From Actinoallomurus soli (GTDB lineage: Bacteria; Actinomycetota; Actinomycetes; Streptosporangiales; Streptosporangiaceae), in NCBI RefSeq assembly GCF_024055715.1, contig NZ_JAMXMV010000010.1, forward strand, positions 1 through 64,000: DNA of 64,000 nucleotides. Direction: 5' to 3'. The position numbers and the translations under genes are program-made. How positions within the stretch are numbered: the stretch's first letter is position 1; the number at the start of each line of letters is the position of its first letter. This document shows, in pieces, positions 40,310 through 41,457 of this stretch. The notes beneath the pieces were generated by a model. The model had not been told where the DNA came from, searched no databases, and saw only the letters and a program-made list of their open reading frames with translations.

Positions 40310-40780
40310 GTGACGGAGCAGCGACTGCAGCCCGGAGACGTGGCCCCGGAGTTCACGCTTCCCGACGCCGACGGCACGCCGGTGTCGCTGTCGTCCCACC
40401 GCGGCCGCCGCGTGATCGTCTACTTCTACCCCGCGGCCATGACGCCCGGCTGCACCAAGGAGGCGGTCGGCTTCCGCGACGCGCTCCCGGCGCTGGAGGA
40501 GGCGGGCGTCGACGTGCTCGGCATCTCCCCCGACGAGCCCGGCAAGCTCGCGAAGTTCCGCGACCGGGACGAGCTGACCTTCCCGCTGCTGTCCGACCCC
40601 GACACCAAGGTCCTCCAGGCGTACGGCGCGTACGGCGAGAAGAAGCTGTACGGCAAGACCATGGTCGGCGTCATCCGCTCGACCTTCATCGTCGACGCCG
40701 ACGGCAAGATCGAAAAGGCCTTCTACAACGTGAAGGCCACCGGCCACGTCGAACGCCTACTGAAGGAACTCGGCGTCTGA
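40310..40780 (+). CDS. bcp: Thioredoxin-dependent peroxiredoxin (Bcp/PrxQ), one-Cys variant
   Basis: 156 aa from GTG 40310 (AAAGG upstream). The peroxiredoxin motif is PAAMTPGCTKEAVGFRD, with the peroxidatic Cys at about 46. The position five residues later, where most Bcp proteins have the resolving Cys, is Val here, and no other Cys is present in the protein. It should reduce hydroperoxides in the cytoplasm but would need an external thiol such as mycothiol or thioredoxin for resolution. It is divergent from the DUF3618 gene. Confidence 0.92.
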   Translation: MTEQRLQPGDVAPEFTLPDADGTPVSLSSHRGRRVIVYFYPAAMTPGCTKEAVGFRDALPALEEAGVDVLGISPDEPGKLAKFRDRDELTFPLLSDPDTKVLQAYGAYGEKKLYGKTMVGVIRSTFIVDADGKIEKAFYNVKATGHVERLLKELGV

Positions 40781-40825: not shown

Positions 40826-41326
40826 ATGGTCAACAGAAAGTACAGCTACAAGTACACTCCGGAGCTGCTCGCCGAAGCCGTCGCCGCCTCCGACAGCATC
40901 GCCGGGGTCCTGCGCTACCTCGGAATCCCATTCTCTGGAGGATCGCACTCCCACATCAGCCGCAGACTCAAGCAGTCCAACATCGATACATCGCATTTTC
41001 TCGGGCGGGCCTCCAACAGAGGCAAGCCGTCAGGAAAACGACTGACACCCGACCAGGTCTTTGTCATCCGTTCGAGCGAGGCGCGGCGACAGCGACCAGA
41101 AATACTGCGGCGGACCTTAATCGAGAGCGGCGTCGCCTATCGCTGCGGCGAGTGCGACTTGCCAGCGACATGGAACGGCAAGCCACTGATCCTTCATGTC
41201 GACCACATCAACGGGGACTACTCTGACAACCGCAAGGAGAACCTCCGTTTCCTCTGTCCGAACTGCCATACACAGACACCGACGTTTGCCGGTAGAATGA
41301 AGAACAAGAAGACCAAGGGGCCGTAG
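40826..41326 (+). CDS. HNH endonuclease, low-GC, overlapping a tRNA gene
   Basis: 166 aa. The C-terminal zinc/HNH module shows CGECDLPATW, then LHVDHINGDYSDNRKENLRF and LCPNCHTQ, giving the H-N-H core and two Cys pairs. The N-terminal half (SIAGVLRYLGIPFSGGSHSH) looks like a helix-turn-helix DNA-binding part. GC content and codon use are plainly lower than the surrounding genes (AAG, AAC, AGA codons), a sign of transfer. The last ten bases, including the TAG stop, lie inside the 5' end of the tRNA gene. It may be a homing or mobile nuclease; a role tied to the tRNA is possible. Confidence 0.87.
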   Translation: MVNRKYSYKYTPELLAEAVAASDSIAGVLRYLGIPFSGGSHSHISRRLKQSNIDTSHFLGRASNRGKPSGKRLTPDQVFVIRSSEARRQRPEILRRTLIESGVAYRCGECDLPATWNGKPLILHVDHINGDYSDNRKENLRFLCPNCHTQTPTFAGRMKNKKTKGP

Positions 41327-41391
41327 CCCAATCGGCAGGAGGCCTGCGGTTTAGGTCCGTATCAGTGTGGGTTCGAATCCCACCGGCCCCA
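41317..41391 (+). tRNA. tRNA with anticodon UAG (Leu-type) and a short variable loop
   Basis: 75 nt. The acceptor arm GGGGCCG pairs with CGGCCCC; the D-arm is GCC...GGC; the anticodon stem TGCGG pairs with CCGTA around loop TTTAGGT, giving anticodon TAG (41352-41354, reads CUA). The T-arm is GTGGG/CCCAC with TTCGAAT. The discriminator is A and no CCA is encoded. The variable region is only TCAGT, five bases, whereas bacterial tRNA-Leu has a long variable arm. It may be a diverged or mobile-element tRNA whose charging is uncertain. Confidence 0.85.
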
Positions 41392-41398
41392 CAGTGGG

Positions 41399-41430
41399 AA
41401 ATCCTCCGAATCCTTGGATTCGGAGGATTT
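41399..41430 (+). terminator. Perfect terminator hairpin after the tRNA
   Basis: AAATCCTCCGAATCC pairs perfectly with GGATTCGGAGGATTT (15 bp, tiny loop) and is followed by CTTATATTCT. It starts eight bases after the tRNA and is AT-richer than the surroundings, like the HNH gene. Confidence 0.88.
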
Positions 41431-41457
41431 CTTATATTCTCAGCCGCAGGCCCGTTC

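Follow-up and report, generated by a model that had tools for sequence, protein, structure and literature searches.

tRNA-integrated islands and prophages use a tRNA gene as their anchor, and synthetic cleave-and-rescue or homing-rescue drives, engineered for eukaryotes, link a nuclease to a replacement copy of the gene that it destroys. At segG/gene 32 of phage T4, endonuclease genes are reported to embed promoters of the downstream essential gene (PMC2988022), and cut sites of SegB are described inside tRNA genes (PMC13096335). HNH genes in phage and mycobacterial tRNA arrays have been suggested to spread or diversify tRNA genes (PMC6409571, PMC5966550). A short-variable-loop tRNA-Leu(TAG) is reported from a presumed phage-derived mycobacterial tRNA cluster, with HNH genes lying within such clusters (PMC6582537).

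Here we analyze a locus in a 64,000-nt stretch of DNA from Actinoallomurus soli (the window; contig NZ_JAMXMV010000010.1, positions 1 to 64,000), in which an HNH endonuclease gene runs into a gene for tRNA-Leu(UAG). It resembles phage T4 SegB, SegF, and SegG in being a free-standing endonuclease gene among tRNA genes, in a pattern of flank co-conversion, and in a candidate embedded promoter. However, SegB is a GIY-YIG enzyme acting between co-infecting phages, whereas the putative HNH homing described here concerns a bacterial chromosome and the sole tRNA found for its anticodon. As in the phage and mycobacterial tRNA arrays, the protein is related to phrog_10822 (over residues 7–164) and has relatives among tRNA genes, but those arrays hold many extra tRNAs, whereas here one resident tRNA at one syntenic site appears to be exchanged and not added. 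The window tRNA-Leu(UAG) is class I, like that of the mycobacterial cluster; the cluster is reported to retain a normal class II isoacceptor (PMC6582537), whereas the class I gene is the only copy that we found. The linkage of an HNH nuclease to a tRNA copy recalls synthetic cleave-and-rescue systems, with cutting of the tRNA gene putative here. A tRNA gene serves as anchor, as for tRNA-integrated islands, but the locus is without an integrase gene between the upstream gene bcp and the tRNA, and the insertion abuts the 5′ rather than the 3′ end of the tRNA. Titles and abstract openings of open-licence papers, which cannot prove absence, returned no HNH-linked exchange of a chromosomal single-copy tRNA-Leu(UAG). 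The HNH protein family and intronless homing are already known; what appears to be new is a chromosomal single-copy tRNA exchanged with an HNH gene. We file the HNH gene as a free-standing homing endonuclease on the pattern of its occurrence rather than on enzymology.

Results

An HNH gene of low GC content ends inside a tRNA-Leu(UAG) gene

The original prediction for this stretch described an A/T-rich HNH gene, enriched in AGA, AAG, and AAC codons, whose last ten bases are the first ten of a tRNA gene followed by a perfect terminator. Each of these features is borne out (Table 1). The HNH frame has a GC content of 0.585 compared with 0.726 for the window, and only 1 of 1270 sliding 501-nt windows is equally low. 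AAG and AAC together amount to 11.4 per 100 codons versus 4.6–7.6 in the three neighboring genes compared, and AGA occurs four times versus not at all in those genes. The GC deficit is strong in the window and milder in relatives, in which the HNH core lies below the GC content of the locus in 45 of 46 cases (mean 0.663 versus 0.712). The ten shared bases match exactly and include the HNH stop codon TAG, which forms bases 8–10 of the tRNA. TAG at these positions is common to many tRNAs, as is also visible among the tRNAs read in this analysis, so that a reading frame abutting a tRNA in the right frame gets its stop for free; the informative part of the overlap is the abutment of HNH and tRNA, not the shared stop. 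The hairpin behind the tRNA comprises 19 bp without mismatch, three of them G-U, and a T-rich tail (−28.9 kcal/mol). Among the window reading frames, HNH is the only plausible gene between the peroxiredoxin-like gene, which we take to be bcp, and the tRNA; no integrase gene was found there, and by this criterion the locus does not qualify as an integrase-type tRNA-integrated element. Rfam matches to sot2652, Plastid-ycf2, and MIR856 were below their gathering scores and were discarded.

Table 1. Coordinates of features in the window and of further loci discussed in the text
Feature	Position	Strand	Basis or remark
bcp (peroxiredoxin-like)	40310..40780	+	usual upstream neighbor of the site; present upstream in 47/50 relatives
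HNH endonuclease gene, 166 aa, ends inside tRNA	40826..41326	+	ORF, Pfam, phrog_10822
Candidate N-terminal three-helix HTH-like module, residues 11–50	40856..40975	+	AlphaFold2 model
HNH catalytic core with two CxxC pairs, residues 107–150	41144..41275	+	Pfam match
TAGAAT, candidate −10 box of tRNA inside HNH frame	41293..41298	+	sequence
tRNA-Leu(UAG), class I, 75 nt	41317..41391 (end 41391/2)	+	tRNA model hits, aragorn
Overlap of HNH 3′ end and tRNA 5′ end, 10 nt	41317..41326	+	sequence; also 10 nt in 22/50 relatives
Intrinsic-terminator-like hairpin 3′ of tRNA	41394..41435	+	fold
Class I tRNA-Leu(UAA) locus (L102)	G000:C3:253313-253467
Class I tRNA-Leu(CAG) locus (L092)	G000:C6:181850-182092
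12-kb extensions of six g34 loci without nearby tRNA-Leu(UAG)	L475, L476, L478, L480, L483, L484

Leucine tRNAs normally have a long variable arm; the tRNA-Leu(UAG) of the window has a short variable loop. In the window's own genome (G000) the tRNA model gave 53 hits at E 0.001, all of which were read by aragorn, and no other UAG anticodon was found among them or in a UAG-pattern search. Likewise, following 37 pattern matches in four complete genomes of a Streptomyces-like genus (g34) revealed no second UAG tRNA, with a pattern that requires TTAG before a purine and misses loops such as that of G004. We thus reject, for G000 and the four g34 genomes that the check covered, the idea that the tRNA is an extra copy free to drift.

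The 76-nt tRNA-Leu(UAA) of G000, which would be the bldA counterpart, and a 74-nt tRNA-Leu(CAG) are also class I, and the CAA, GAG, and another CAG tRNA are class II; G001 has a similar 74-nt tRNA-Leu(CAG) in a row with Glu and Met tRNAs (L533). By eye, the tRNA-Leu(UAG) of G004 (L116/L004, the latter from a MAG) carries C and not the near-universal U at position 33. The UAG pattern also returned a conserved string at G000:C4:34575-34603 (minus strand) with matches in G001, G003, and G007, and aragorn read no tRNA in it in these four genomes of the genus (L526, L534, L535, L537). Two degenerate tRNA-Lys(CTT) copies (L103 and L104, G000:C31) share their 3′ half with the intact gene, as might be left by integrating elements.

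The protein belongs to an HNH family of phage tRNA arrays

The 166-residue protein matches the Pfam HNH model (PF01844) over residues 107–150 with 25.3 bits (cut-off 21.4), and Cys-107, Cys-110, His-124, His-127, Asn-139, Cys-144, Cys-147, and His-148 are invariant among 19 sequences; the score above the curated cut-off and the conserved H-N-H residues place it in the HNH endonuclease superfamily. A match to phrog_10822 (2.7e-51) spans residues 7–164, and this full-length similarity, with the tRNA neighbors, assigns the protein to a phage tRNA-array HNH family. An AlphaFold2 model (mean pLDDT 80.6) predicts N-terminal helices at residues 12–20, 25–32, and 40–50, which we read as a candidate HTH-like module. 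This module is repeated in the HNH genes of g34 (L262–L340; e.g. L263, L293, L324), which form tandem arrays with up to three extra N-terminal modules of ∼50 residues. The extra modules suggest that DNA recognition may be modular. The catalytic part resembles the ZorE and ‘HEase’ models of a defence library. The NCBIfam scores, 27.2 bits for Zorya ZorE (cut-off 600) and 13.1 bits for IscB (cut-off 175), assign the protein neither to ZorE nor to the IscB RNA-guided nucleases.

Comparison of the HNH genes of the window and of G004 gave a dN/dS of 0.117 at a dS of 2.1, which is near saturation. NG86 estimates of 0.05–0.21 across eight chosen HNH pairs indicate that the gene is under purifying selection and the protein maintained. 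A search for a second HNH-tRNA unit in the window's own genome returned one weak HNH match only (E 0.0016), and 72,556 plasmid records contained a single weak match.

A fixed site has occupied, empty, and decayed alleles

A protein scan of a species-genome collection located 52 loci, 49 of them actinobacterial. All 49 have a tRNA-Leu(UAG) downstream of HNH, starting at most 374 nt past the HNH stop; no tRNA was found in the stretch of the three remote, non-actinobacterial loci. bcp is the upstream neighbor in 47 of the 50 loci examined but not in L009, L010, or L014. In a profile search, 67 of 393 genomes of the class matched, weaker and partial matches included, and the tRNA is present in all 30 best loci of these 67 genomes, counting the window's own. 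The order bcp–HNH–tRNA-Leu(UAG) thus recurs across Actinomycetes, and the site is fixed.

We compared the locus in related genomes, as the original prediction had proposed, and found the tRNA at one fixed site with HNH present, absent, or decayed. The eight genomes of the window's own genus comprise two with intact HNH (G000 and G004), four empty sites with 16–19 nt from bcp to the tRNA (G001, G002, G005, and G006), one clear scar (G003), and one probable scar (G007). In the G003 scar, 21 of 21 bases of the leader preceding HNH are kept, a better match than in any of 300 shuffles, together with 19 of 20 bases of the HNH end, TAGAAT included. In G007, 18 of 20 bases of the HNH end are found at the same distance from the tRNA, a match that is not above its shuffles. 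An HMM search did not detect the scars in G003 or G007. Empty and occupied alleles at one site are what is expected of a homing endonuclease. The four empty sites share one tRNA (with one base different in G005), and the four genomes with HNH or a scar have four different tRNAs, changed mainly in the D and anticodon stems as judged by eye; evidence for a tRNA allele moving with HNH is thinner in the window's own genus.

In the wider family, bcp was found in 60 of 61 genomes, and 28 further loci from these 60 yielded 24 tRNAs. The 20 tRNAs from loci without HNH are class I in 12 cases and class II in 8, and the four from loci with HNH (two intact, two broken) are all class I. Both classes occur at HNH-free sites, which points either to a clean loss of HNH there or to tRNA change independent of it.

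The tRNA lies behind bcp in relatives with and without HNH, and therefore the tRNA locus is not an import. The view that a nuclease was inserted exactly at a tRNA 5′ end is upheld, and the proposal of one imported unit of nuclease, tRNA, and terminator fails for the resident tRNA locus by the refutation test set out with it. The proposed mobile element that brings its own tRNA survives at the level of the allele: in two other genera, tRNA type tracks the HNH tree. The locus itself is resident, whereas the tRNA allele that it carries is not simply inherited.

The tRNA type follows part of the HNH gene and not the host

We analyzed 25 named Micromonospora loci using the bcp tree as a proxy for the host. 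tRNA class requires 2 changes on the HNH tree versus 8.6 after shuffling (0/500 as low) and 10 changes on the bcp tree (472/500 as low). tRNA distances correlate with those of HNH past residue 50 (r = 0.70, 0/2000 as high), and the corresponding values are 0.04 for the first 50 HNH residues (371/2000) and 0.01 for bcp (816/2000). The first 50 residues correlate with bcp (r = 0.45, 2/2000), the remainder of HNH less so (0.22, 23/2000), and the value for the whole protein (0.34, 1/2000) comes mostly from the N-terminal module. HNH past residue 50 follows the tRNA, and the first 50 residues follow the host.

The same division is visible in pairwise alignments. Micromonospora arida and Micromonospora noduli (L038/L040) are 94–99% identical over 1.2 kb up to about HNH base 150, 55–74% identical across the remaining HNH gene and the tRNA, and 95–99% identical beyond. 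Five further chosen pairs show the same dip, with more divergent flanks in L031/L025, L035/L042, and L027/L024; identity resumes 39–49 nt past the tRNA in five pairs and 22 nt past it in L027/L024. The differing block thus comprises part of HNH and the tRNA in 6 of 6 chosen pairs, which is, as a pattern, that of co-conversion.

Among the 49 named loci, all 14 with a ‘TGFPIGRRL’ tail in the protein part beside the tRNA have a class I tRNA, those with an HTH-like C-terminal domain have class II in 11 cases and class I in 2 (L019 and L026), and 23 loci have neither tail nor domain. L019 combines the two, with the tail adjoining the tRNA, as though a second element had inserted at the first. We considered whether the long C-terminal reading frame that reaches the class II tRNA in Micromonospora is spurious and rejected this, the frame being conserved and, by eye, HTH-like.

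A second data set comes from g34, in which 80 of 81 genomes have bcp. Downstream of it, a tRNA-Leu(UAG) lies within 3.5 kb in 67 genomes and within 12 kb in 6 more; 6 are without one within 12 kb of bcp (L276, L277, L289, L313, L333, and L339; extensions in Table 1), and 1 reaches a contig end. The 73 tRNAs fall into nine types (27 class I and 46 class II), with pairwise identities down to 49% among the first 67. All 73 retain A73, A14, and the UAG anticodon, which are leucine identity elements, and so have the appearance of functional leucine tRNAs. The tRNA-Leu(GAG) of g34 served as a control: its sequence does not vary among the 30 best-matching loci, which were the ones read, and its best match is at the same level in 77 of 81 genomes and lower in G424, G433, G443, and G468. 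The canonical tRNA-Leu(UAG) type is found in 2 of 41 HNH-intact, 3 of 13 partial, and 11 of 19 HNH-free loci (intact versus HNH-free, Fisher p = 1.2e-5). HNH-free L326 has its tRNA close to bcp and a type that is not canonical.

The host tree for g34 was built from rpoB in 70 genomes, and the HNH trees, in which many forks are weak, from 37 intact loci, using the first (HNH-A) or last (HNH-B) full HNH domain. tRNA type requires 44 changes on the rpoB tree of 70 genomes versus a shuffled mean of 45.6 (143/500 as low), and 21 versus 21.9 for the same 37 loci (192/500). It requires 14 versus 21.8 changes on the HNH-A tree (0/500) and 17 versus 21.7 on the HNH-B tree (2/500), where tRNA class requires 9 versus 12.3 (22/500). 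The match between HNH and tRNA is imperfect, as 14–17 changes remain on the HNH trees. The presence of HNH itself has no signal on the rpoB tree (23 changes versus 23.3), so sparse sampling may hide host signal in g34. Distance correlations give a similar picture: tRNA correlates with rpoB at 0.02 (573/2000 as high), with HNH-A at 0.34 (0/2000), and with HNH-B at 0.23 (0/2000), and rpoB correlates with HNH-A at 0.22 (5/2000) and with HNH-B at 0.08 (282/2000). An HNH gene wholly discordant with the host is not supported by these correlations (0.08–0.22 with rpoB and 0.34 with bcp): the linked tRNA is without host signal, and HNH retains a weak to moderate one (r = 0.08–0.34).

We aligned 15 chosen g34 pairs. 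In the eight of unlike class, identity resumes inside the tRNA (two pairs) or 47–55 nt past it (six pairs). In the four with two class II types it resumes inside the tRNA (one), at its start (two), or before it (one), and in the three pairs of like type it resumes before the tRNA.

Phage relatives adjoin tRNA genes

A viral scan gave at least 547 related loci, of which the best 80 were kept; each of these contains at least one tRNA gene. Removal of duplicates left 73 loci. In these best matches, the HNH stop overlaps the next tRNA in 18 (by exactly 10 nt in 7), precedes it by 0–10 nt in 12 and by 11–50 nt in 2, and is further from it in 24; no tRNA follows HNH in 17. Overlap or a spacing of up to 10 nt is thus found in 30 of the 73. 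tRNA-Leu is an immediate neighbor in 33 of the 73, and it accounts for 133 of the 615 tRNAs there. With duplicate loci included, 22 of 47 viral tRNA-Leu(UAG) in this best-matching set are short; one in a 392-kb contig shares 82% identity with the window's tRNA and 85% with that of a relative. We opened five annotated phages among the 30 listed of 232 matching. HNH lies among tRNA genes in four of the five (Vibrio D69, Citrobacter Michonne, Gordonia GodonK, and Rhodococcus Francesca), and GodonK shares the 10-nt overlap; in the fifth, Streptomyces phage Gilson, no tRNA is annotated near HNH.

A candidate tRNA promoter lies within the HNH frame

Of 50 bacterial loci, 38 have an HNH frame that extends into the tRNA and 12 have one that ends before it, a count that includes one sequence twice (L003 and L004) and some frameshifted frames. 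The overlap measures 10 nt in 22 loci, 15 nt in 8 (class II), 38 nt in 2, where the HNH stop falls at the anticodon, and another length in 6. RNase P cuts at the tRNA 5′ end, so a processed transcript would lack the HNH stop codon; such trimming could limit HNH synthesis.

Upstream of the tRNA, TAGAAT could be its −10 box; by eye, the window has no clear −35 box for it. The G003 scar retains the motif with unchanged spacing to the tRNA, as, less surely, does G007. In g34, 19 of 37 loci with intact HNH and 21 of 30 others have a TANNNT 12–26 nt ahead of the tRNA, versus ∼2% of control windows. The named loci give only a weak signal (11 of 51 versus 7%), and a clear one is confined to g34.

Discussion

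The locus combines a fixed site, empty and decayed alleles, a gene under purifying selection, block-wise differences (HNH past the N-terminal module, plus the tRNA) between loci that are nearly identical elsewhere, and a tRNA type that follows part of HNH and not the host. We consider it probable that HNH is a free-standing (intronless) homing-type endonuclease of the phage tRNA-array family that co-converts the linked tRNA. From its position between bcp and the one tRNA-Leu(UAG) gene of the genome, HNH would nick or cut the corresponding locus of a differing allele. Repair copied from the HNH-bearing allele would then bring in HNH sequence together with the linked tRNA, and the donor allele would itself be protected. 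The cassette brings a working tRNA and, in the window, a candidate tRNA promoter within the HNH frame, which would explain why the insertion is tolerated. HNH may be a nickase or inactive, and ordinary recombination plus selection would leave the same block.

A stronger version, which we hold only tentatively and at somewhat below even chance, is a natural cleave-and-rescue drive, in which HNH would cut the recipient's only tRNA-Leu(UAG) gene and the cassette would supply a cut-resistant replacement, even of the other class. The HNH specificity part and the tRNA allele would then diversify as matched pairs, which would explain one hypervariable tRNA beside a sister isoacceptor that hardly varies. 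The two tRNA classes also alternate in the family where HNH is absent, and HNH keeps part of the host signal; both points argue against this version.

The tRNA may instead be a passenger of a chromosomal, perhaps anti-phage, HNH gene that is under diversifying selection and spreads by homologous recombination, without HNH cutting. Such a history would suit an exchanged block that spans HNH past the N-terminal module as well as the tRNA, a C-terminal HNH type beside the tRNA that mostly matches tRNA class, and a catalytic part similar to the ZorE and ‘HEase’ defence models. We nevertheless regard it as unlikely: the family adjoins tRNA genes and favors tRNA-Leu in phages too (best 80 of at least 547 loci), the confinement of empty sites and scars to a single place is consistent with homing, and by eye the neighboring reading frames of the window include no known defence partner. 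Selection might also act on the tRNA, with variant tRNA-Leu(UAG) resisting tRNA-cutting toxins or defence nucleases and HNH merely helping to move them. tRNA-centered arms races have been reported (PMC13096335), tRNA-Leu(UAG) is hypervariable in g34 next to a nearly invariant tRNA-Leu(GAG), and 22 of 47 tRNA-Leu(UAG) in the phage loci (best of at least 547 relatives) are short, one being 82% identical to the window's. That comparison involves two isoacceptors only, however, and the canonical tRNA persists in HNH-free genomes, which makes this origin improbable in our judgment.

Still less credible is the idea that HNH and tRNA work as a guided or toxin-antitoxin-like pair, with HNH restrained or directed by the tRNA or its precursor. 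Such a pair would fit HNH-tRNA co-inheritance and the overlaps at 38 of 50 bacterial loci, as well as the 30 of 73 phage loci (best of at least 547) in which HNH overlaps or abuts the tRNA, but HNH is lost while the tRNA stays, the phage neighbors span many isotypes, and the IscB-like match is far below its cut-off. That a decaying phage HNH gene merely happens to abut a tRNA we find hardly believable. TAG at tRNA bases 8–10 does make overlaps easy, but a chance overlap is contradicted by the shared site across Actinomycetes, the purifying selection, and the co-inheritance.

tRNA genes are generally regarded as some of the most conserved and vertically inherited genes. At this locus, close species differ in the sole tRNA found for an anticodon, even as to class I or class II, and these differences parallel those of a neighboring selfish-looking nuclease. 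If homing with co-conversion of the tRNA is true, intronless homing would be a force in bacterial core genomes, and the locus would be a natural counterpart of rescue-type gene drives. The exchanged alleles may also provide many natural experiments on how leucyl-tRNA synthetase can accept leucine tRNAs that lack the long arm.
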